Source: Candidatus Caccalectryoclostridium excrementigallinarum
GTDB taxonomy: Bacteria; Bacillota; Clostridia; Christensenellales; UBA3700
Assembly (NCBI GenBank): GCA_018714485.1
Contig: DVNJ01000001.1
Location: 1-64,000 of the forward strand
DNA: 64,000 nucleotides
Reading direction: 5' to 3'
Part shown: positions 9,291 to 53,211 of the stretch, one piece after another
Layout: every line of letters begins with the position of its first letter
Position numbering within the stretch: the first letter of the stretch is position 1
Translations under genes and position numbers: made by a program
Notes under the pieces: model-generated
The model's database searches: none
What the model was told of the DNA's origin: nothing
Seen by the model: only the letters and a program-made list of their open reading frames with translations

Positions 9291-10007
9291 TCACTTTTTG
9301 CTTAAAAGTATTAAAAATTCAATATTTTTATTTTGCCTTTGCGGCGCCGACGTAAGGTCGCGTTCGACAAGATCGAGCGCTTTGGCGCTATTGCGTATTT
9401 TTTCGATGCTTTTCTCCCGCTCTTTGGCGTTTGTGACGATCCCGCTCTTGCCAAGAGCCTTTTTTCCCGCTTCGAACTGCGGCTTGATGAGCGCGATGAT
9501 ATAGCCCGAACTTTTCAAAATTTCCTTCGCCGCGGGGAGAATGAGCGTGAGCGAGATAAAGCTCACGTCGATGACGACGAGGTCGCATTCTTCGCCTATG
9601 TCCTCTCTTTTGAGATAGCGCGCGTTGGTCTTGTCTTTGACGACGACGCGCTCGTCCGCCGTCAATTCGGGCGGCAGAGCGCACTCCCCCACGTCCACGG
9701 CGTAAACTTTTTTCGCGCCGTTTTTGATGAGGCATGAGGTGAATCCGCCGTTGGAGGCGCCGAGGTCGGCGCAGACCATGTCTTTCACGGAAAAGTCAAA
9801 ATCTTTCAACGCCTTGGCGAGCTTTTCTCCGCCGAAAGAGGCATATTCGGGCAGTTTTTCCAATTCTATGAGGTCGCCCGCCTTAACTTCGAAGGCGGCT
9901 TTGAGCCTTATTTCCCCGCCCACTCTGACTTCGCCGCGCTCGATGAGCTTGACGGCTTTACTGCGCGAGAGCGCGAATTTTTCCGCAACGGCGAGATCAA
10001 GCCTCAT
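9291..10007 (-). CDS. tlyA: TlyA-family RNA 2'-O-methyltransferase
   Basis: A 238-aa protein with an N-terminal S4 RNA-binding domain (about 1-60) and an FtsJ-like methyltransferase domain. The SAM motif ADLGASNGGFT spans 80-90, the catalytic Asp segment is VVIDVSFIS, and LIKPQFE carries the active-site Lys. Relatives methylate 16S and 23S rRNA; the older name haemolysin is misleading. The ATG at 10007 overlaps the dxs stop as ATGA, which rules out a longer start. The dxs-tlyA-nadK-argR-recN order matches Clostridia and Bacilli. Confidence 0.93.
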   Translation of the reverse strand: MRLDLAVAEKFALSRSKAVKLIERGEVRVGGEIRLKAAFEVKAGDLIELEKLPEYASFGGEKLAKALKDFDFSVKDMVCADLGASNGGFTSCLIKNGAKKVYAVDVGECALPPELTADERVVVKDKTNARYLKREDIGEECDLVVIDVSFISLTLILPAAKEILKSSGYIIALIKPQFEAGKKALGKSGIVTNAKEREKSIEKIRNSAKALDLVERDLTSAPQRQNKNIEFLILLSKK

Positions 10008-33899: not shown

Positions 33900-34991
33900 T
33901 CATCCCAAAAAATGCAGCAGATCCAACACTATCGCCAAAATCAGCATGAGCGCCAGCCCCACCATGTGTATTACGTTTTCTATCTTGCGGTTCACGGGCT
34001 TTCCTCTGATCCATTCGATGAGCGTGAATATGACTTTCGAGCCGTCCAAAGCGGGAAACGGCAGTATATTCATTATGGCGACGGACGCGGAGAGCACGCA
34101 CACCCCATACATTATCGCATAAAAACCCGCTTGTGTCAATTGTGCCAGCGAAGCGACCGCCGTGACCGTTCCGCCGAGCGTTTCGCTCACCTTGGCGTCT
34201 CCCGTGAAAAGCTGCCCTATCGACGTGAAGATGAGTTCTATGACGTCGCCGACGAACACGAAAGAATGCCCTATCGCGGGGAAAAATCCCATTTTATACT
34301 GCGTATAGCCGTATGTGATCCCGAGTCCGTAAGACGCCTGTCCGTCTTCGCCCGCGTAATAGACCTTTTTGACGTTCAGTTCGACTTCTTCCCCGTCACG
34401 CAGAACGACGAGCGTAACGCTCTCTTTGTCCTTCATCGCGTCGGAAAACGCCGTGGCGTCTATGAGCGAATAGACGTCTTCTCCGTCCGCACTCAAAACT
34501 ATATCCCCTTCTTTGAGCGGCTGTTCGGCGGCGATCGTCATCTCCTTGTCGGCATAAACTTCGACCGTTTCCACGACCGTCGGCAAGACGTCTCCGAACG
34601 CCATAAAGAACACGGAGATAACGATGATCGCGCTGAAAAAGTTAAACATTGCGCCCGAGAGCAGGACGATTATCCTCTGCCAGGGCGGCTTTGAATAATA
34701 GCTTCCCTCGCTCGGCGACTGCTTTTCCTCTTCGTCGCCGTCAAAAGCGCAGTATCCGCCGAGCGGTATGCAGCGCAGGGAAAACTGCTCTCCCGTCTTC
34801 TTATTGGTGTGTTTGAAAATGGCGGGACCGAAACCGATGGAAAACTCGTTGATCTTGAACTTGAAGATCTTTCCCGCGACGTAATGTCCGAATTCGTGCA
34901 CCACGATTATGAACATCAGGCATAAAAGCGCCGCCAGAATGTATCCGATCCATTCGAGCACCTCGACAAAGGTGACTGAAAGTAAAAACAT
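33900..34991 (-). CDS. rseP: Site-2 intramembrane metalloprotease RseP/RasP
   Basis: A 363-aa M50 protease that cuts membrane proteins such as anti-sigma factors within the bilayer. HEFGH (32-36) in the first membrane segment and NILPFPALDG near 310 hold the zinc. A single PDZ domain lies between (about 130-215). GGAGGT precedes the ATG. The frr-uppS-cdsA-dxr-rseP-ispG order is common in Firmicutes. Confidence 0.94.
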   Translation of the reverse strand: MFLLSVTFVEVLEWIGYILAALLCLMFIIVVHEFGHYVAGKIFKFKINEFSIGFGPAIFKHTNKKTGEQFSLRCIPLGGYCAFDGDEEEKQSPSEGSYYSKPPWQRIIVLLSGAMFNFFSAIIVISVFFMAFGDVLPTVVETVEVYADKEMTIAAEQPLKEGDIVLSADGEDVYSLIDATAFSDAMKDKESVTLVVLRDGEEVELNVKKVYYAGEDGQASYGLGITYGYTQYKMGFFPAIGHSFVFVGDVIELIFTSIGQLFTGDAKVSETLGGTVTAVASLAQLTQAGFYAIMYGVCVLSASVAIMNILPFPALDGSKVIFTLIEWIRGKPVNRKIENVIHMVGLALMLILAIVLDLLHFLG

Positions 34992-41497: not shown

Positions 41498-41929
41498 TTA
41501 AAGGGGTATTTTGCAAGGATTGTCGAGATATGTCTGCAAGATTATCGTCGCAGCCACTCTGTCGATGACTCCCTTGCGCTTTTCCCGCCTCATGCCCGAC
41601 TCTATCAGTACTCTTTCTGACGAGACGGTCGTCAAGCGTTCGTCCTGAAAAACAATTTTTGCATTCGTGCGCTCGGCAAGTGCGTCTCCCCATTCCCGCG
41701 CCATCTGCGCGCGAGGTCCGCTGCTCCCGTCCATGTTGAGCGGCAGTCCCACCACCACGACGCCCACGTTCTGCTCTTCAATGAGCTTGCAGATGTGTTG
41801 CAGGTCCGCCTCATCTTCCTGTCTGCGGTATGTTTCGAGCGCGCCGGCGACGATCCCCATGATGTCGCTCACGGCGATCCCCACGCGCACGTCGCCGAGA
41901 TCTATGCCCATATATCTTTTTCCCGTCAT
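41498..41929 (-). CDS. ruvX: RuvX/YqgF Holliday-junction resolvase-like protein
   Basis: A 143-aa RNase H-fold nuclease linked to pre-16S rRNA processing and recombination. MGIDLGDVRVGIAVSD carries the first Asp, VVGLPLNMDGS and FQDERLTTV the middle motifs, and IDRVAATIILQTYL the C-terminal Asp. It follows the ABC permease by 10 bp and precedes the DUF1292 gene. Confidence 0.93.
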   Translation of the reverse strand: MTGKRYMGIDLGDVRVGIAVSDIMGIVAGALETYRRQEDEADLQHICKLIEEQNVGVVVVGLPLNMDGSSGPRAQMAREWGDALAERTNAKIVFQDERLTTVSSERVLIESGMRREKRKGVIDRVAATIILQTYLDNPCKIPL

Positions 41930-41939
41930 GATTCTCCTC

Positions 41940-43658
41940 CTAATCCATCGCGTCCAGAGCCGCGCTCATGCGCTTTATGCATCTGAAACCGAAGACGCCG
42001 CAGACCGCGGCGCATATGACCGCCATGACGCCCCAGACGACGCCCGAAAGCGCATAGCCGGTAAGCCCCGCCGACGGCAGCAGCATATATAAAAGCATGC
42101 CCGCGACCGCCACAGTCATGGCGATGAGCAGCGACGACAGGGTCTTGGACGACGACTTGATGAGTTCTTTATAATTGATATAATTGAAATTGGGATTTTT
42201 TATGTCGCGCAGTAAGCCGTAAGAATTCAAGCCCAGCCCGAGCAGCGTAAAACATATTATCGAGCCGAAAAAGTCGAGCACGTTGAAGGTCCCGAGCGCG
42301 ATCAATATCACCGCGTCTATGACGACGGACAAAAAGGTGAATATATCGGCAAGCAAAAGCTTCGAGATCACGATGTCCCTGCTCGATATGGGCATAAAGC
42401 GCGCGATCTTGAAGCTCTTTCCCTCGCGCGAAACGGCGACGGACGCCAAAACATTGGCGGCGCTCATCGCACACATAAGGCAGAGCGACGTCCCCGCGAG
42501 CATGGACGGATACATTTCGTCCGTGCCCTCGGCGGCGCCCATGGGCAAAAGCAGATTGAACGCAAGCAACATGACGGGCGCGAGGATGAGCGAGGAAAAA
42601 GACTGAAACGCGAGCTGCGGCTCACGCATTATCCCGACAAGATCTTTTTTGATCAGCGCCGCTCTCACTCCCGCGGTCTTCAATCTGACTGTTTTTTCTC
42701 CGCCGCGCCGCGAAGCGTGCACCGCCCGCGTGTCCGCCAGAGAGAAAAACGCCCTGCTGCCGACAAGCGCCGCGGCGCCTAAGACGAGAATGACCGCCGC
42801 GTAGATAAGCGAGCTCTGCCAATCTCCGCACATGCCGCGCGCCGCCCAGATCGAGGGATAGATATGCTGCGTGTAGCCGCAAAGGCTCGCGAGCATCTTG
42901 TCGAGCACGGCAAAAGCGTCTTCCGTGCCGTCGAAAACCATCTCCCCCATGCTGTTTTGCAGATAAAACATGCCCACATAGAGCGCGGCGAACAGCGCGC
43001 CGTAAACGACTATCATTATCACCGTTTTAAGCACGGAGGACTGTTTTAAGTAAGAGATCACCTTCATTATCGGGAAGGAAACCGCCGCCATGACAAACAG
43101 CGGGATCACGGGCAGAGTCAGCGCCGTGAAGAACATCATCAGGTAATAATCCGCGCTACCGTAGACATATGCCTGCGGCGAAAGTTCGAGCGCTCCCTGA
43201 GCTATCGCCTGAGCGTAATCTTCCACCGCCGCCGCGCTCCCCGCCGCGATCACCGCGCCGCCTGCTATCGTGACGACGAAGCTTATCATTACCGTGTTGA
43301 GATACATCACGAGCATGCGCGAGAGAAAGACCGCGCTCGGCGAAACGGGCATGGCGGCGAGCAGCTGCCTGTCCTTGGAAAACCAGACGCTGTTGACATA
43401 TGAAGGCGTAAAAAAGACGAGTATCATGAGCTGAACGCCGGCGAAGATGAGGTTGAGTATCTCGTCGAGATAGCTGCCGAAGACCGCCGCCTGCGCCAGA
43501 TAATAAAGCATGATAAAGACAAAAGCGAGGGGCACGGCAAAGGCTATGAGCAGCAAAACGAGAAGCCCGAGGCGTTTGAGCGCGGTCTTTTTGTCCTTGT
43601 AAAGAGCGAGAAAATTCAGCCTCAGATCGAGCGAAAAAATACTTTTGAAGTTTGTCAT
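41940..43658 (-). CDS. ABC-2-type exporter permease
   Basis: A 572-aa membrane protein with about twelve hydrophobic segments in two halves, separated by a soluble loop (about residues 300-350). It overlaps the ATPase gene by 4 nt, so they form one transporter. Substrate unknown. The layout resembles large permeases of lipid, peptide or antibiotic exporters in Clostridia. Confidence 0.85.
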   Translation of the reverse strand: MTNFKSIFSLDLRLNFLALYKDKKTALKRLGLLVLLLIAFAVPLAFVFIMLYYLAQAAVFGSYLDEILNLIFAGVQLMILVFFTPSYVNSVWFSKDRQLLAAMPVSPSAVFLSRMLVMYLNTVMISFVVTIAGGAVIAAGSAAAVEDYAQAIAQGALELSPQAYVYGSADYYLMMFFTALTLPVIPLFVMAAVSFPIMKVISYLKQSSVLKTVIMIVVYGALFAALYVGMFYLQNSMGEMVFDGTEDAFAVLDKMLASLCGYTQHIYPSIWAARGMCGDWQSSLIYAAVILVLGAAALVGSRAFFSLADTRAVHASRRGGEKTVRLKTAGVRAALIKKDLVGIMREPQLAFQSFSSLILAPVMLLAFNLLLPMGAAEGTDEMYPSMLAGTSLCLMCAMSAANVLASVAVSREGKSFKIARFMPISSRDIVISKLLLADIFTFLSVVIDAVILIALGTFNVLDFFGSIICFTLLGLGLNSYGLLRDIKNPNFNYINYKELIKSSSKTLSSLLIAMTVAVAGMLLYMLLPSAGLTGYALSGVVWGVMAVICAAVCGVFGFRCIKRMSAALDAMD

Positions 43659-44404
43659 ACGCCCTCTCCGACGTCGCTCCCGCCCGTGACCGAGAGAAAG
43701 AATTCTTCGAGAGACACGTCCTCTTTTCTGTTTCTCAACTCGTCCATGCTCATGACCTCGATTATTTTACCGCGATTTATTATCGCCAGCCTGTCGCAAA
43801 GCTTTTCCACGACTTCGAGCACATGCGAAGAGAAAAACACGCTGTTGCCCTCGTCGCAATGCCTGCGCATGAGTTCTTTGAGCACATGCGCCGAACGCGG
43901 ATCCAACCCCGTCATAGGTTCGTCGAGTATCCAAAGCTTGGGACGATGAACGAGCGCGGCGATGATGCAGATCTTCTGCTTCATGCCGTGAGAATAACCG
44001 TTGATCTGCTTGTCGAGCGCCGCTTCCAGCTCCAACTGCCGCGCGAGTTCCTCTATCCTGCTCTTGCGCTCTTTGAGCGGCACGCGATAGACGTTACAAA
44101 CGAAGTTGAGATAATCCGAACCGGTGAGATTTTCATAGGTGGCATGGTCGTCGGAAACGTAACCTATGTTCATTTTCGCGCCTATCGGATCTTTTTTGAG
44201 GTCGCAGCCGCAAACCGTGACGCTGCCCGAATCATAAGGGTGAATGCCCGTTATGCATTTGAGCGCGGTGGATTTTCCCGCTCCGTTGGGACCGAGAAAC
44301 GCCATGATCTCCCCCTCGTTTATCTGCAACGAGACGTTTTCGATGGCGGGGGACGGCTGTCCCTTGTAAGTTTTTGTCAGGTTTTGCACTTCAAGCATTG
44401 CCAT
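43655..44404 (-). CDS. ABC transporter ATP-binding protein
   Basis: A 249-aa ATPase. Walker A is GPNGAGKS (38-45), the ABC signature YSHGMKQKI near 138, and Walker B LWILDEPMTGLD near 157, with the switch His in FFSSH. It energises the permease encoded next. AAGGGG lies 8 nt before the ATG. It starts 4 bp after rarA and probably shares its promoters. Confidence 0.93.
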   Translation of the reverse strand: MAMLEVQNLTKTYKGQPSPAIENVSLQINEGEIMAFLGPNGAGKSTALKCITGIHPYDSGSVTVCGCDLKKDPIGAKMNIGYVSDDHATYENLTGSDYLNFVCNVYRVPLKERKSRIEELARQLELEAALDKQINGYSHGMKQKICIIAALVHRPKLWILDEPMTGLDPRSAHVLKELMRRHCDEGNSVFFSSHVLEVVEKLCDRLAIINRGKIIEVMSMDELRNRKEDVSLEEFFLSVTGGSDVGEGV

Positions 44405-44408
44405 AAAG

Positions 44409-45701
44409 TTACCCCTTGTTCCTTTTTATCTTTTTCGCTCTCACGAGCAATTTTTCGGATCCGTTCGACGAAGGCGTGTAAAACTCTTCGTCTTTGAGCT
44501 TGTCGGGCAGATACTGCTGCTCCACCCAGCCGCCGTAGTCGTGCGGATACTTATATCCGCCCGCGTGAACGCCCGCATAATGGCTGTCACGCAGATAGGG
44601 CGGGACGTTGTCATCCTTGACCTTTTCCACCGCCCGCGCCGCTTTTTCCATCGCCGTCACGACGGAATTGGACTTTGAGGCTTCGCAGACGTAAATTATC
44701 GCGTTGCAAAGAGGGATCTTTCCCTCGGGCATGCCGATATGCTCAAAGGCATACATCGCCGAAGTCGCGACCACGAGCGCCTGCGGATCCGCCATACCCA
44801 CGTCCTCGGAGGCGTGAACGACCAGCCTGCGCAAGATGAGCATGGGATCGCAGCCCGCCGCGAGAAGGCGCTCCGACCAATAGAGCGCCGCGTCGCTGTC
44901 GCTTCCGCGGAGCGACTTGCAAAAGGCGCTGAGCATGTCGTAATACATATTTTCGTCCACGCCGAGCGACTTTTTCTGAATGGACTGCTCTGCCGTTTTC
45001 AAGTCGATATGCACCACGCCGTCGCTCCCCGCTTCCGTGGTCAAAAAGGCAAGCTCCAAGGCGTTGAGCGCCGTGCGCACGTCGCCGTCGCTCGCCCATA
45101 TGAGATGATCGAGCGCGTCTTTATCTAACTTGACCTTATATCTTCCGAGCCCGTTTGTCTTGTCCGTGAGCGCATGGCAGATCGCGTCCTGCATATCGCT
45201 CTTTTCAAGCTTACGAAACTCGAAAATGCGGCAGCGCGAGACTATTGCTTTCGTCATAGCGATAAAGGGATTTTCCGTCGTCGAACCGATAAAAATTATG
45301 TATCCCTCTTCTATCGCCGAGAGAACGCAGTCGCTCTGCGCCTTGTTCCAACGATGGCATTCGTCGAGCAGCAGATAGGTTTTTATCCCTTCCGTGAGCT
45401 TGCGCCGCTTCGCTTCGTCGATCACTCTTTTGGCGTCGGCAACGCCGCTCGTCACGGCGTTGAGCTTGACGAACGCTCCGCCCGTCGTGTTGGCGATGAT
45501 GTTGGCGAGCGTCGTCTTACCGCAGCCGGGAGGTCCGTAAAATATACAGCTTCCCAACGTGTCGGTCTTGATCGCCCTGCGCAAGAGCGTGCCTTCGCCG
45601 ACGATATGGCTTTGACCGTAAAAATCGTCGAGCGAAGTCGGTCTCATTCTTTCGGCAAGCGGCTTGTTTGCCCGATCGCCCATTTCAAACAGACTTTCCA
45701 T
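44409..45701 (-). CDS. rarA: RarA/MgsA replication-associated recombination AAA+ ATPase
   Basis: A 430-aa clamp-loader-like ATPase acting at stalled forks. KPLAERMRPTSLDDFYGQ opens the protein, Walker A is GPPGCGKTT (56-64), Walker B LLLDECHRWN near 112, and TTENPF is sensor 1. The C-terminal tetramerisation part is present. The ATG at 45701 matches the family N-terminus (ESLFEMG) but has no ribosome site and lies 6 nt from a -10 box, so the proximal transcript would be leaderless. Two promoters lie upstream. Confidence 0.93.
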   Translation of the reverse strand: MESLFEMGDRANKPLAERMRPTSLDDFYGQSHIVGEGTLLRRAIKTDTLGSCIFYGPPGCGKTTLANIIANTTGGAFVKLNAVTSGVADAKRVIDEAKRRKLTEGIKTYLLLDECHRWNKAQSDCVLSAIEEGYIIFIGSTTENPFIAMTKAIVSRCRIFEFRKLEKSDMQDAICHALTDKTNGLGRYKVKLDKDALDHLIWASDGDVRTALNALELAFLTTEAGSDGVVHIDLKTAEQSIQKKSLGVDENMYYDMLSAFCKSLRGSDSDAALYWSERLLAAGCDPMLILRRLVVHASEDVGMADPQALVVATSAMYAFEHIGMPEGKIPLCNAIIYVCEASKSNSVVTAMEKAARAVEKVKDDNVPPYLRDSHYAGVHAGGYKYPHDYGGWVEQQYLPDKLKDEEFYTPSSNGSEKLLVRAKKIKRNKG

Positions 45702-45707
45702 GCGCAC

Positions 45708-45737
45708 ATTATCGCATACACACGCATTAATTGTCAA
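45708..45737 (-). promoter_or_regulatory. Proximal sigma-A-type promoter of rarA
   Basis: TTGACA (45737-45732), 18 nt, GATAAT (45713-45708), with a TGC extended -10. The usual initiation distance puts +1 at or next to the A of the rarA ATG. Confidence 0.7.
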
Positions 45738-45761
45738 ATGCGTAAGAGCGGTTGCGTTTTT

Positions 45762-45790
45762 ATGATACTCTTCTTTCCCCCCCCCGTCAA
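45762..45790 (-). promoter_or_regulatory. Distal rarA promoter with G9 tract in its spacer
   Basis: TTGACG (45790-45785), 17 nt, TATCAT (45767-45762). Nine consecutive G (45785-45777) form the last base of the -35 and the first eight bases of the spacer. Gain or loss of one G would shift the spacing to 18 or 16 nt. The -10 TATCAT is identical to that of the rnpB promoter. Confidence 0.6.
45777..45785. repeat. Homopolymeric G/C tract of nine bases
   Basis: Nine C on the plus strand, nine G on the minus strand, in the gap between the glucan synthase stop and rarA. I noticed no other run this long in the window. Confidence 0.9.
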
Positions 45791-45813
45791 GTTTTTGAGC
45801 GCCTAATTTTGAC

Positions 45814-48800
45814 TTATTCGTCTTTCTTGAACAAAAAGGTAAGCTCGTATTCTCCCGGCGGTCTTTTCGTGTCTATCCTCACTCCCCTCATGTTTATCCC
45901 GTTTTCGCGCACGCCTTCCTCCTCGTCGAAAGCAAAGCGCACGTTGAACACGGCTTTGCCGCGCCTATACAGCACGACTATCTTTTCCGCGTCGGCGGCA
46001 AGCGGTCTTTTGCATTCGATCGCGCCGTTTTCGATGCGGAAACCGATATAATCTTCAAGATAAGTTTTGAAGTACCACGCCGCACTGCCCGTATACCAGC
46101 TCCAACCCATTCGCCCCTTTATTTCGGGCGCGTAATAGACGTCCGCGGCGATGACATAAGGCTCTCCCTTATAGCGGGCATTTCCTTCCCCTTGACAGGC
46201 ATAGATCGGATCGAGCATGCGCGCAAGTTTCCTCGCGTATTCAACGTCGCCGAGCAGGCAAAACGCCTTGAAAAGCCAGACTGCGGCATGCGTATACTGA
46301 CCGCCGTTCTCGCGTACGCCCTCGGGATAAGCCGAGATATAGCCGCAATAGTTTTGCTTGTCGAAAGCGGGCGCGAGCAGGCGCACGACGCCACTGCGCT
46401 CGTCAATGAGCGTTTTGGCGCTTTCGAGCGCCGAGCGGGCTTTTTCACCTTCCGCAACGCGCGCGATCACCGCCCAAGCCTGCGAAATTATGTCGATTTT
46501 GCAGCAAGGCGAATCTTCTCTGCCCAGCCAGACGCCTTCGTCTGTAAAGGCGCGCGCATATCTGCCGTCGAAAAACGCCGCATTTATGCCCCGCTTCAAC
46601 TTGTCGGCAAGGTCGAGATAGCGTCCTCTTTTTTCCGCGGGGATATAGGGCGCCGTCTTCATGATGACGTCATAGGCGAATTCACTCAGCCAAACGCTTT
46701 CGCCCCTGCCCTTTGAGCCAATCTCGTTGAGCGCGTCGTTCCAATCTCCGCCGCCTATCTTCACGAGCGAGTGCTCGCCCAATTCACAAGCGCTGTCGAT
46801 CGCGCGCAAAATGTGTTCGAGCAGGCTGCCTTTTTCCGCGCTCTCGCGCCCCTGCTCCATGCGCGAATCTTCGCCGCGGCTCAGCGGCTTTGAGCAAAGA
46901 TAGGGGATTTTTCTCTCCAATATGCTCTTATCTCCCGTATGACGAATATATTCCGCCGTGACATATCCCAAGAACAACCTGTCGTCGACAATGCGTGTGC
47001 GCACTCCGAGCATGGGCGGATGCCACCAATGCATGACGTCGCCCTCTTCGTATTGATGCGCCGCACAGTCAGCTATCATATCGGCGACGAATTTTTCGTC
47101 GGCATAGATGTGCGCGAGGCAATCCTGAAGCTGATCGCGGAAGCCTATGGCGCCGCCCGCCTGATAAAAGCCGCATCTTCCTTTGAGACGCGAGGAATAG
47201 ACCTGATAAGGCAGCGCGCGCATGAGCGCTCTTTCTTCCTCGGGAACGCCGAAAAGTTCGACACCGGACTCAAATTCAAATGTTTTCAATCCCTCTTCAA
47301 TCATATATCCGATATTTTCTTCGTTACATTCATCAAAGACCTCTTCGCTTGAACATATGAGAAAATAAATTTCAAGGCTGCCCTCGGCGCAAAGCGAGAT
47401 ATTTTTCCTCAATTCGGCGCAAGGAGCATATGCGCCGCAGGAGCGCTTTTTCCCTTTGACCTTTGCCACATCTTTTCTGCATACGACCTCGCAGCCGCCG
47501 AGACATTTGACAAAGGCGGCATTGCCCGTCAAAACGTTGACCGCCTTCAATCCCTCTTTGAAGGGCGAAATTTTAACGGAAAAAGGCTCGTATACCCTCG
47601 AAAGCTGCAACAGAAGAAACAATTCAAGCGTCACCGAGCGGGAAAACTTTTCGCGGTTTTGCAATCGCAGGCGATAAACTTTTCCCTCGCCGCGGCGGAT
47701 CAAACCGAGCGTGAGACGATAAGAAACTCCTTCGGCTCGACCGCAAAATACGCTTTGTCCTCTGCCGTGAAGGACATAGCCGCCCGGATCGAGCTTGTTG
47801 ACTCTCAGCCTTTTGCCGTCAATGACCGCAAAAAGCCTTTCGGACGGCGTATCCTCGACGGGATCGGCGCTCCAAAAAGTCGCCTTGTTTTCGCAGGAAT
47901 TGTCGAAGAAAGTGAATCCCCCGCCGTTTTGAGTGAGGACAAAGCCGCCCTTGTCTCCCGCAATGACGTTGGAATAAGGAAGCTTGCAGGGCTTGTCTAC
48001 GACATAGCCGCCGCCAGTAAAATATCCGCAGCCGCTCACGATCATCTTAGGCGGTTTTTCGATATGTTCGCAGACGGCTCTTGGCTCTTTCGAGTCGGGT
48101 GCGTCCTGCCTGCTCTCGGCAGATCCGTCGCTAATTGAGAAAGCGCTTTGACTTTTTGAGCTCAACGCTTTTGAAAGAGGCGTAAACGCGCCGAACCTGT
48201 TTTTGCATTCAAAATTGTCTATTATGTGCACTATGCCCAGCGAGGATATATCGCCCGCTTTGCCCTTTGTCACTCTTTCGCTCTTTTGTGAAAAATCCTT
48301 ATCGCTCCTGTCTATCACCACATATAACGAGCATTTCAAACCGCATAAATTGAGATATAAGGCGGCGAAAATCGCGCTTTCAAGCAGATAAAAGTCCTTT
48401 TCGTAATCGATAAGCAGGCATTTTTCACCGCTTGAATAGCGAACGAATTGTATGTTTTGTGCATTCTCAGTCGGATAAAGTAATTGCGGCGCTATCTTGT
48501 CGATGAGCATATTGGTCGCAATATCGCCGCGATATTTCCAAGTGCGCAAAGTAGGCATATCGGCAAATTTTTCGCAATAACCGAAAAATCCCTCCTTATC
48601 GATGTCGAAGACGTTCTTTTTTAAAAGCGACAAATCGCTCGAAAACGCCTTCATCAGATATATCTGCGCGCTCTTTTGCGGAGAGATATCGACTCTTCCG
48701 CAAATGCGGATCTCGGGGTAAAGTACGCTCCCGAGAGAACTGCTTATCTCGCTGCCGTCTTCTTTGCGGGCGTTGCCGCTCAGGCTTATCCCCTTCACGC

Positions 48801-51800
48801 CTGTCATCATCGCCGCGCAGAACTTATCCCCGCCCCTGCTCTTTGACGACTTTTTCAAAAACAGCGTCTCGCGTTCGCTGAATGCCGAAACGAACATATC
48901 CGCATAAACGGGATGGGAAAGGTATTCCTCTTCCGAGGCAAAGGCAATGCGCTCGCTGTATGTCACGAGATAGCTTTTGACGCTGTCGCTCTTGTTGGTT
49001 ATCGTGAGTTTTCTCAATTCGCCGTCCATTCCCGGGAGCATCATCACTTCGAGCGAGCAATCCTTGGACAGATTGTCATATTTTACCTTTTGACAGCTAT
49101 ACTCGAACGTGTAGCGGCAATTTGCGTCTTTAAGCGGGAAAAACGTGGGCGAAAAAGTCTCCTTTTGTTCCCTGATGACGAAAAATCCGCCGTCGGGCAA
49201 ACTCCTTATCCTTCTTCTCCTGCTCACCGTCTCTCCGCCGTAGATGGTATAACCTCCGCCACATTCGTCAAGTACCGCTGAACAGCGCCCTTCGCCGATG
49301 ATCGCAACATGTTCGCCGTCATATACGTCGTATTTCGCGAAAAAGTCAAGCCCTTTCGCCTTTTCGTATTTCCTCTCTTTGACGGGAAGCGCCGAACAGC
49401 GGCCGCGAGGCGTTTTTTCTTCGAGCATGCTCATTCCGCCCTTTATGAGCGGGTCCGAGCAAAACAATTTTTGCAAGACGTCCTCTTTCAATTCGTTCGT
49501 TATCGCCGCAAGGATCATTCCCTGATGATGCGTCATGAAAGCGCCGACCGCTTTTCCGACGTTGAGATCCAGCGCTTCGCAAAACCCGAACTTCGCGTAA
49601 ACGCCGCGTTTTTTCAGCTTTTGCAGATTGACGACCGCCCTATGTTTGATATATCTCAACATCAGGGCGGATGCGTAAGGACTTATGACGCGCCCGTCCG
49701 TCCCCGTCGTCAGGCTCAGGCAAGACTCGCCGAACTGCTTATAGACATAGTTTCCGCAGTCGTCGAATTCATAGCAGCCGCTCTCGCTTTTGCCGAACAC
49801 TCCGCTCTCTTTTTTCTTTGACATGATAAGGCTTGCTTTTTTGCATGAGGAAGAGATGAAGGCGTAGGGAGCGTCGGGGAAAAACAGCTGCGGCATCAGA
49901 TACTCAAACGCCGTGCCCGCCCAGGCAACGAGCATATTGCCCTTGCGCGCTATCATCTCGCGCTTTGCCCCGAGCCAAACGCGCGTATCGTTAAGACGGC
50001 AGGAGACGATATAAGCCGCAGTGCGCGCTTCAGAGGCGAGCATATCGTAATGACCGACGAAACGGTTGTCCTCTTCGTTGTAACCGATATACAGTCTGCC
50101 GCAGCTCTCGTCGACGAGCGCCTCCAAGCGCGTGTTTTCGATGAGTGCGCTCACCTTTTGCGTATCCGCGCCCGCATTTTTCAGAAACGCGCGCACGCAG
50201 ATGAGGCAGGCGAGGAAATTCCCGCTGTCCACGCTCGAAACAAAGCGCGGCGACAAAACCTTTCCGTCCGTATCATACCAATTATAGAGATTGCCGCGCC
50301 ACTTTTTCAGCTTTTTCGCCTTGGCGATATCTTCTTCGAGCCGCACCGTCGCCTCCGCCTCGGAGATCACTCCGCATTCGCATGCGCAGACATGCGCAAG
50401 CATCGCCATTCCAATGTCGGTCGGCGAAGTCATTTTCGCGGAGCGCGTGCGCGGTTCGAAAGCAAGATTATCCGTGATATAAGTCGATCTTTCCCTCATT
50501 TCGGCAAAATACGCATATGTCCTCATTGCGATCGAGCGCAAGATATCTTTATCCTCTTTGTCGAGCTTTTTTGCCTTGCCTACCTTGATCCCGCCCAAAG
50601 CGAGCAAGCACATATAAAGCGCGCAAGCCGCCGCGTAAACGGGCGCCGCCAACGACACGACCGCAGTCGCCGAAAGCAAGGCGCATAACAGCAATGCGGG
50701 CAAGATAGCCGCAATATGCGCGCGAGCGGGTCTTTCCCGCATACTGACTGCAAAAGTCTTCCATTCGAGAAGGTCGCCGCCGAAAATCAATTTTCGGATA
50801 GTTTTTGCCATCACCGTTATGCTGCCCGCGGCTTCTGCGGGCAGGGAAAATATTTCCGCGAATGCGCCGCCGATGGCGGAAAGGGCTCCGCGCAAGGCAT
50901 AGCGGTATCGCACCCCGTTGCCCGCGGAATCCAATTCGAATCCCGCCCGCGCAAGCGGCATGGCAAAAACGAGCAAGGCGAAAACGATCAAAAGCGCGAC
51001 TTCTTTCAGGCAAAGCGCGGCGATAACGGCGGCAAGCAAGGCGCACGGACGCAATATTTCGAAAAAATTGCGCAAAACGACGCCGCGATAAAGCGGGTGT
51101 ATCGCCCTTGAAGAAAACGCCAGCGGAAGCAGCAAGAGATCTCCCCTCTGCCATCTCCTCTTTCTGCTCACATCCGCCGCATAAGTCGGCGGCACGTCTT
51201 CGTAAACGCACTCGCCCGCGCTCGCCGTGTGCGTGAGCGCCCCTTCGGCGATGTCGTGGCTCAAAACTCTCCCTTCGGGCAACGCCCCGCGCAGTTTTTC
51301 GGAAAAACTTTTCAACCTATATATGCCTTTGCCGCAAAAGACGCTCCTGCCGCACAGATCGTAATAAAAGTCGTCCGAGGCGCAATATCTCTCCTCGCCG
51401 CTCTCGTTCAAAAAGGCTCGCCCGTGCAATGTGATCACGGTCGACACCTTATAGCGGCAGGTAAAAGCCATGAGATCGACGCTCGCGGCGAGAGGATGCA
51501 TCATGGCGGCAACGGCGCGCTTTATCCCTCCCGGCGCGATAATCGAATCCGCGTCGAGAAGCACGACATATTCGGGTGTTTCGGGCACCGCGCTCATATA
51601 GAGGAAATTTTCACTTCCGCCGCCAAGCAGCAAGGCGTTCATATCTTCGATCGCGCCGCGCTTTCGCTCGCGTCCGCGCCATATCTTGCCGCATTTGCTT
51701 CTGCGGCGCACAAGCACGAATACGCGTTCAAGCCCTTCCGCGCGTTTGAGCGCCCGAACGATATTTTCGTCCTCTGTTTGCGTCTCGCTCGCGCTTTCGG

Positions 51801-53211
51801 GAAGGTCTGCGAGCAAAACAAACGCCGCGTTTTCTTCGTCGTTACCGCTTTTCAGGGCAATAAGCCCGTCGAGCGCGGAATTTGCCTGCTCGACGTCTTT
51901 GACGAGCACGCTCACCGCCGCGATCGTCCTGCCCTTTTCCGGTATGCTTTCGAGTTTGAGGCGCGGCACGGGTCTCGACGGTAAAAAGCGGGACGCAATG
52001 CGGGCGAGCAGATAATCTATAGGTCTTTGCGCGGCGACGAAGACGAGGAAAAATGCCGCCGCGGCAAGCCCCGCCGTCGGCATCAAAACGGCGGCGATGA
52101 CGGCAAAAAGCGCCGCAAAGACGAATATCGCGGAAAAATGCAACGCAGCGCGCGCCTTACCGCCGTCAGAACGGATCTCGTCGGGCTTGCCTTTCAACGC
52201 CCTTATCAGCCGCGCTCTTTCCTCAAAGAGAAATTTTCCGAAATGCACCTCTTCCCTTGCGCCGAGTTGAAGCGCCTTTTCCGCCGCCGCACGCTCGGAC
52301 ACCCGCGCGAGTTTTGCCGTCTTCGCCACCGCGGCGGTGTAAGCCATGCGCGAGGCGTCGTCCATGGCGCGATAAGTCTCCTCTTCGCTCATCCTTTCGT
52401 CCGTGACGGAAAAGGACAAAAGCCTTTGCGCGGTTAATATCTCACCGACGCTTTTGAAGGATTTGAGGCATTGCGCGATGGTCATATTGATTTCGGTCAG
52501 AGCCGCTCCGAAGGTTATCTCGACCTTTTCCGCACCTACACGGGAATATTCGTTTTGCGCATCTTGACCGGAAATTTTGCGAAAATAGGCGTAACCGAGC
52601 AAGTTTTCGCGGCGAGAAGAATATATCTTGTCCTTGCTTGCGTATCTGCGCGAGCGATCTATCTCGATCATGCGCTCGCACATCGCGCTCAAACGCCGCA
52701 GCAGCACATATTCCGCCGCCGCGGGCAACGCAAAAACTTCTTCGTTGTCGAGCGGCGCATATTTGTTGAATGTTTTGACGCCTGCACCGAATTTTTCTCC
52801 GTCGAGTTCCCATGCGTTCAGCGACAAAAGCAGGCGCGCCAAGGCAACTACTCTGATCCTGCCCTTGCTTCGCGGCAACGCATCGAGCGCGTAAAGAGAG
52901 CGAATATGCATGCGCGCAAGCAGTGACGCCCCGTTTTCGTAAAGGCGCTTTTCGCATTCGAGCAGATCTTCGTCCGCTCTTTTGCACACAAGCCGATAGG
53001 CACGTCTTATCTTTCGTATTGTCGCATAAAGGGGCAGACCCACGCCCGTCCTGTCTCGCGCGGTCATTTCGAGCGCGAGTTCCGCGGCGTTGCGGCGCAC
53101 TTCCTCTTCATCCGCCCTGACCGCCATGGCAAAGCGATGACGGCGTTCGAGCAAGGCGAGCGCGGGGATAAAACTCAATATCAATGCGGCGATGACGATA
53201 TAATAGATCAT
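45814..53211 (-). CDS. Cyclic beta-1,2-glucan synthase-like protein (NdvB type)
   Basis: A 2465-aa membrane enzyme. Order: N-terminal membrane helix and helical region (1-340), membrane helices near 360-400, a GT84-like transferase with LLDADSII near 550 and RKRRWQRGD near 687, further helices (about 700-770 and 840-890), a glycoamylase-like domain (SPTDIGMAML near 930, MTHHQGM near 1230), then a GH94-like phosphorylase part with the catalytic Asp segment GGGDWNDALN near 2155 and TGSAAWYFK near 2375. NdvB makes, trims and cyclises beta-1,2-glucan. GAGGT precedes the ATG. It stands alone between rnpB and rarA. The product may be linear or cyclic. Confidence 0.88.
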   Translation of the reverse strand: MIYYIVIAALILSFIPALALLERRHRFAMAVRADEEEVRRNAAELALEMTARDRTGVGLPLYATIRKIRRAYRLVCKRADEDLLECEKRLYENGASLLARMHIRSLYALDALPRSKGRIRVVALARLLLSLNAWELDGEKFGAGVKTFNKYAPLDNEEVFALPAAAEYVLLRRLSAMCERMIEIDRSRRYASKDKIYSSRRENLLGYAYFRKISGQDAQNEYSRVGAEKVEITFGAALTEINMTIAQCLKSFKSVGEILTAQRLLSFSVTDERMSEEETYRAMDDASRMAYTAAVAKTAKLARVSERAAAEKALQLGAREEVHFGKFLFEERARLIRALKGKPDEIRSDGGKARAALHFSAIFVFAALFAVIAAVLMPTAGLAAAAFFLVFVAAQRPIDYLLARIASRFLPSRPVPRLKLESIPEKGRTIAAVSVLVKDVEQANSALDGLIALKSGNDEENAAFVLLADLPESASETQTEDENIVRALKRAEGLERVFVLVRRRSKCGKIWRGRERKRGAIEDMNALLLGGGSENFLYMSAVPETPEYVVLLDADSIIAPGGIKRAVAAMMHPLAASVDLMAFTCRYKVSTVITLHGRAFLNESGEERYCASDDFYYDLCGRSVFCGKGIYRLKSFSEKLRGALPEGRVLSHDIAEGALTHTASAGECVYEDVPPTYAADVSRKRRWQRGDLLLLPLAFSSRAIHPLYRGVVLRNFFEILRPCALLAAVIAALCLKEVALLIVFALLVFAMPLARAGFELDSAGNGVRYRYALRGALSAIGGAFAEIFSLPAEAAGSITVMAKTIRKLIFGGDLLEWKTFAVSMRERPARAHIAAILPALLLCALLSATAVVSLAAPVYAAACALYMCLLALGGIKVGKAKKLDKEDKDILRSIAMRTYAYFAEMRERSTYITDNLAFEPRTRSAKMTSPTDIGMAMLAHVCACECGVISEAEATVRLEEDIAKAKKLKKWRGNLYNWYDTDGKVLSPRFVSSVDSGNFLACLICVRAFLKNAGADTQKVSALIENTRLEALVDESCGRLYIGYNEEDNRFVGHYDMLASEARTAAYIVSCRLNDTRVWLGAKREMIARKGNMLVAWAGTAFEYLMPQLFFPDAPYAFISSSCKKASLIMSKKKESGVFGKSESGCYEFDDCGNYVYKQFGESCLSLTTGTDGRVISPYASALMLRYIKHRAVVNLQKLKKRGVYAKFGFCEALDLNVGKAVGAFMTHHQGMILAAITNELKEDVLQKLFCSDPLIKGGMSMLEEKTPRGRCSALPVKERKYEKAKGLDFFAKYDVYDGEHVAIIGEGRCSAVLDECGGGYTIYGGETVSRRRRIRSLPDGGFFVIREQKETFSPTFFPLKDANCRYTFEYSCQKVKYDNLSKDCSLEVMMLPGMDGELRKLTITNKSDSVKSYLVTYSERIAFASEEEYLSHPVYADMFVSAFSERETLFLKKSSKSRGGDKFCAAMMTGVKGISLSGNARKEDGSEISSSLGSVLYPEIRICGRVDISPQKSAQIYLMKAFSSDLSLLKKNVFDIDKEGFFGYCEKFADMPTLRTWKYRGDIATNMLIDKIAPQLLYPTENAQNIQFVRYSSGEKCLLIDYEKDFYLLESAIFAALYLNLCGLKCSLYVVIDRSDKDFSQKSERVTKGKAGDISSLGIVHIIDNFECKNRFGAFTPLSKALSSKSQSAFSISDGSAESRQDAPDSKEPRAVCEHIEKPPKMIVSGCGYFTGGGYVVDKPCKLPYSNVIAGDKGGFVLTQNGGGFTFFDNSCENKATFWSADPVEDTPSERLFAVIDGKRLRVNKLDPGGYVLHGRGQSVFCGRAEGVSYRLTLGLIRRGEGKVYRLRLQNREKFSRSVTLELFLLLQLSRVYEPFSVKISPFKEGLKAVNVLTGNAAFVKCLGGCEVVCRKDVAKVKGKKRSCGAYAPCAELRKNISLCAEGSLEIYFLICSSEEVFDECNEENIGYMIEEGLKTFEFESGVELFGVPEEERALMRALPYQVYSSRLKGRCGFYQAGGAIGFRDQLQDCLAHIYADEKFVADMIADCAAHQYEEGDVMHWWHPPMLGVRTRIVDDRLFLGYVTAEYIRHTGDKSILERKIPYLCSKPLSRGEDSRMEQGRESAEKGSLLEHILRAIDSACELGEHSLVKIGGGDWNDALNEIGSKGRGESVWLSEFAYDVIMKTAPYIPAEKRGRYLDLADKLKRGINAAFFDGRYARAFTDEGVWLGREDSPCCKIDIISQAWAVIARVAEGEKARSALESAKTLIDERSGVVRLLAPAFDKQNYCGYISAYPEGVRENGGQYTHAAVWLFKAFCLLGDVEYARKLARMLDPIYACQGEGNARYKGEPYVIAADVYYAPEIKGRMGWSWYTGSAAWYFKTYLEDYIGFRIENGAIECKRPLAADAEKIVVLYRRGKAVFNVRFAFDEEEGVRENGINMRGVRIDTKRPPGEYELTFLFKKDE

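Follow-up and report, generated by a model that had tools for sequence, protein, structure and literature searches.

Comparison across the genus identifies an element upstream of rarA, here named P1, as a real and genus-specific promoter maintained by selection; the run of G residues in its spacer makes it a plausible candidate for phase variation. P1 stands ahead of a second promoter, P2, that lies closer to the gene.

P1 was read from a window of 64,000 nucleotides – the whole stretch of DNA analysed – from a 1.43-Mb assembly (G000) that was compared with its congeners at one genome per species. It is a sigma-70-like promoter on the minus strand (45790-45762; TTGACGGGGGGGGGAAAGAAGAGTATCAT), with hexamers TTGACG and TATCAT that match the consensus at 10 of 12 positions and are separated by the 17-nt spacer GGGGGGGGAAAGAAGAG. 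The original prediction had described these hexamers, their spacing and the nine G at the -35 edge and in the spacer, and a reading of the minus strand bears out each part: the tract (45785-45777) is exactly nine long, its opening G doubling as the final base of the -35 box and the other eight forming the first eight bases of the spacer. The features of the locus are as follows.

45785..45790, minus strand: P1 -35 box TTGACG; TTGAC also in congeners G001, G002 and G004
45777..45785, minus strand: G9 tract of the P1 spacer; orthologous G9, G8 and G7 in three congeners
45762..45767, minus strand: P1 -10 box TATCAT; congeners read TATGATA
45732..45737, minus strand: P2 -35 box TTGACA, from the consensus scan and congeners
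45708..45713, minus strand: P2 -10 box GATAAT, TATAAT in congeners; predicted leaderless start
44409..45701, minus strand: rarA/mgsA, RarA-type AAA+ ATPase of 430 aa (MgsA_C PF12002, E 8e-60), no Shine-Dalgarno
43655..44404, minus strand: ABC exporter ATPase, DrrA/GldA-like (ABC_tran, E 4e-30), SD-like AAGGGG upstream
41940..43658, minus strand: probable ABC-2-type permease of 572 aa, from its position and hydrophobic sequence
41498..41929, minus strand: ruvX, the next gene in the conserved cluster (PF03652, E 8e-44)
45814..53211, minus strand: upstream GH94/glucan-synthase-like gene of 2465 aa (PF17167, E 8e-70)

P1 thus sits between the stop of the GH94/glucan-synthase-like gene (45814), 23 nt before it, and rarA, whose ATG (45701) is 60 nt from the -10 box. 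The order rarA-ABC ATPase-permease-ruvX is operon-like, with a gap of 4 nt between rarA and the ATPase gene in the window, and a consensus scan of 44500-45800 returned no minus-strand terminator. This order is kept in the genus, and a similar rarA-ABC-ABC-ruvX order is found in most of the family and at several more distant loci. The ATPase has drrA as its best NCBIfam match, under the cut-off; the permease has no match in Pfam or NCBIfam.

Within the window the tract is an outlier, since the 23 remaining runs of at least five G or C are all five or six long. Dinucleotide shuffles set a more lenient standard: overlapping G8 matches averaged 0.94 per window; two were observed, a number reached by 24 of 100 shuffles. 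The consensus hexamer scan returned 3 promoter sites in 3 kb against 1.6 +/- 1.3 expected and is not significant alone, which is what one would anticipate were P1 a chance promoter-like string around a homopolymer, or an artefact of assembly. Such an origin is hardly credible, because the same element precedes rarA in three further species; the assemblies of all four, which are independent, share the orthologous site, and reversed controls returned zero.

Upstream of the orthologous rarA the element reads TTGAC plus G9 in G001, plus G8 in G004 and plus G7 in G002, followed by eight bases and TATGATA. TTGAC with G7 to G9 is therefore orthologous in four of the five genus members having rarA of this type, the window included, and the check that had been asked for, conservation of the tract in relatives, is upheld. 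P1 is absent from G005, the most distant congener, and from all other genera examined. A search of 46 family genomes with TTGACGGGGGGG (TTGACG7) gave five matches, four of them ahead of rarA, and none with the reversed pattern. The four species that carry P1 are far apart: fourfold-degenerate sites of rarA differ by 47-57% between them, and of 154 such columns just 32 (21%) are the same in all four. The probability that drift would keep the 12 bases of TTGAC plus seven G is ~6e-9, a rough figure in which sites are treated as independent. That these bases have been kept while the fourfold sites of rarA are near saturation argues for P1 as a selected element.

P2 has a wider distribution. It consists of TTGACA-18-GATAAT on the minus strand (45737-45708) and leaves 6 nt between its -10 box and the rarA ATG, which in the window has no Shine-Dalgarno. 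The order supplied 75 distinct rarA loci; at 63 of them a TATAAT-like box lies 3-12 nt upstream of the ATG, against 4-15 of 75 in shifted control windows; at 41 of the 75 the distance is exactly 6 nt, and a Shine-Dalgarno motif is present at 4. The rarA P2 thus combines a -10 box within ~10 nt of the start, absence of a Shine-Dalgarno and conservation, the features of leaderless genes, and rarA appears to be transcribed leaderless throughout the order. By this comparison P2 is the older promoter, and P1 would have been added later, ahead of the rarA operon, in one genus. The nearer promoter that had been suggested as a source of basal expression accordingly exists, and is conserved across the order.

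Other roles for the region around the two promoters were considered. Hairpins in the leader between P1 and P2 are no better than those of shuffled sequences (z -0.4 to -1.6), which leaves an attenuator or riboswitch there unsupported, and none of seven loci with promoters of the tract type matched an RNA family in Rfam. A G-quadruplex at P1 was dropped, there being a single long G run only. Phage records contained nothing resembling the P1 tract promoter.

A central issue is the relation between the length of the tract and the spacing of the promoter. Spacers from TTGACG to TATNAT are 17 nt in G000, 16 in G001, 15 in G004 and 14 in G002, with tracts of G9, G9, G8 and G7, respectively. In all three species with TATGATA the non-G part of the spacer is eight bases long, so that the entire difference in spacing among them is the G run; between species, then, spacing changes with tract length and is uncompensated elsewhere, as is characteristic of spacer-slippage promoters. 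Spacing that tracks the G run in this way is what one would expect to see if a tract that slips had been sampled a single time in each species. For Neisseria phasomes the PhasomeIt criterion is a poly-G of at least nine (PMC5953494). The G9 of the window reaches that length between -35 and -10, and its first base also belongs to the -35 box; the tracts of G004 (G8) and G002 (G7) fall under it.

These data lead us to propose that P1 is a sigma-A-type promoter, confined to one genus, whose spacing is set by a slipping G tract and whose activity is graded, with P2 remaining steady; this could well be so, and our confidence in it falls a little short of even. Each G gained or lost would shift P1 spacing by one and so alter P1 activity in a graded and heritable manner. 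The spacer of 17 in this assembly would lie near the P1 optimum, and since one slip from G9 gives a spacer of 16 or 18 nt, a graded effect is to be expected, not an on/off switch. P2 would supply a steady leaderless rarA mRNA, while the transcript from P1 would carry a ~54-nt leader without a Shine-Dalgarno ahead of the rarA ATG. Because rarA has no Shine-Dalgarno and the ATPase gene has an SD-like site, P1 would probably help the exporter more than RarA: its output would go chiefly to raise expression of the exporter genes, and it would interfere with P2. We infer slippage within populations, and likewise infer, from the layout of the locus, that P1 would be transcribed and would have this effect on exporter versus RarA. 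The original prediction, in which P1 varies transcription of rarA and the exporter together, is thus sustained in part: the shared operon-like layout favours it, but rarA has its own predicted leaderless P2 and no Shine-Dalgarno, which makes tuning of the exporter likelier.

A different account holds that P1 is a fixed promoter, its G-rich spacer a normal, selected feature of the genus and its differences in length the product of slow divergence, with no switching from cell to cell; variants of it take the G residues to be part of an extended TTGAC[AG]GGG edge or of a site bound by a regulator. This is a real possibility, to which we give tentative credence appreciably below even. The pattern TTGACRGGG-N10-14-TANNAT matches 14 times in six congeners, two of these matches overlapping each other, compared with 1 match for the reversed control, and an interrupted version of the element, TTGACGGGGGAGGGTAGCAATGGTACAAT, occurs on contig C14 of G000; both favour a fixed promoter. 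(A count of spacer base composition was excluded, many of its loci having been chosen by GGG patterns.) The tract has, moreover, been held at 7-9 across near-saturated neutral divergence, which fits a fixed G-rich design too, and mutS1 and mutL are found in G001, G002, G004 and G005, so that mismatch repair would slow slippage in the tract-bearing congeners. Also telling against a slipping tract are the nature of the operon – housekeeping repair and export being an atypical target of phase variation – and the fact that the tract lengths come from species, not clones. In addition, TATGATA overlaps a second -10 register (GATAAT, GATAAA or GATATA, three bases downstream), and the two registers might buffer changes in length. 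A fixed promoter should nonetheless have constant spacing, yet the spacing runs from 14 to 17 without compensation, and spacers of 14 and 15 nt are poor for sigma-A.

Those short spacers, found in two species, would be less puzzling if P1 were minor or decaying, with leaderless P2 running the operon and changes in tract length inconsequential. The conservation of P2 across the order, set beside the lack of P1 in G005 and other genera, agrees with this. We judge it improbable, given that TTGAC, G7 and TATNATA have been retained while neutral sites are near saturation. As to the state of mismatch repair in G000 itself, its loss was set aside as a proposed driver of slippage. G000 and G003 are without the entire sigF-miaB-mutS-mutL-miaA-lexA stretch that is present in four congeners, through either a gap or a deletion; because the flanking sigF, miaB, miaA, an aluminium-resistance-like gene and lexA are missing from G000 as well, an assembly gap explains the absence of mutS and mutL equally.

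Further poly-G tracts occur in the genus. A pattern search found five places in G000 with at least eight consecutive G, two of them in promoter-like spacers: P1 and a G9 on contig C20 (72248-72256), in TTGACATCTCG9TGATAATAT, which follows a spore-germination-like gene at the end of its contig; the gene downstream of it is unassembled. A third, on contig C5 (31916-31924), is shared with contig C17 of G002 (9412-9420); in both species this G9 is an in-frame part of the signal-peptide coding sequence of a putatively secreted protein that carries a GLUG motif, and the gene is a candidate for translational phase variation. Of the other two, one comes after a stop codon and one is at a contig end where the sequence is poor. 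Contig C11 of G002 (34837-34850) has the promoter-like TTGACG9TAGTATGTTACACT ahead of an ORF that starts like a secreted or lipoprotein precursor, and contig C8 of G001 (51448-51456, opposite strand) has C9 among the opening codons of a putative lipoprotein gene. An unexplained element – AAGTTAT, G10 or G9, TAA and a C-rich stretch – is shared by G001 (contig C5, 50944) and G004 (contig C9, 13269). The interrupted TTGACGGGGGAGGGTAGCAATGGTACAAT of G000 (contig C14, 73334-73362) is accompanied by a good ribosome-binding site and a short ORF, and a second RarA paralogue is encoded ~4 kb from it (77723-78997). A run of 20 G in G005 (contig C93, 3063-3082) is possibly a sequencing artefact. The genus thus has a small set of tracts, several of them placed where slippage would matter; the G9 promoter-like sites on C20 of G000 and C11 of G002 count in favour of a slipping P1. 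A broader proposal can be built on this set, in which the two stacked promoters act as a phase-variable dimmer – poly-G P1 setting the exporter and P2 steadying RarA – within what would be a small phasome of poly-G tracts in the genus; taken as a whole we consider it rather unlikely.

A literature search brought up no report of phase variation in Christensenella or affecting rarA. Comparison with known systems is nonetheless instructive. P2 resembles the leaderless genes of a published survey, in which the Pribnow box lies ~10 nt before the start (PMC3160421), in having its -10 box 6 nt from an ATG without a Shine-Dalgarno; among Firmicutes that survey found leaderless genes concentrated in Lactobacillales and Mycoplasma, whereas here one gene, rarA, holds the layout across a clostridial order. 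In fetA of Neisseria gonorrhoeae a homopolymer between -10 and -35 changes both spacing and expression (PMC5320596); fetA differs from P1 in that its target is in the outer membrane, its tract is poly-C and its effect is supported by expression data, while the tract of P1 is poly-G on the coding strand. The closest parallel is with porA of Neisseria meningitidis, likewise a sigma-70 type promoter with a poly-G spacer, tract lengths of ~9-11, spacing that follows the tract and a graded effect: relative to 11 G, 10 G halves expression and 9 G cuts it 13-fold (PMC3639595). P1, in contrast, belongs to Clostridia, precedes genes for RarA and an exporter, is followed by a second promoter predicted to be leaderless, and is a candidate drawn from comparison between species. 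Spacer-slippage promoters are known mainly from host-adapted Gram-negative pathogens and from genes for surface components; should our reading of P1 prove true, the mechanism would extend to commensal, uncultured gut Clostridia and to a core operon encoding a fork-repair ATPase and an exporter.
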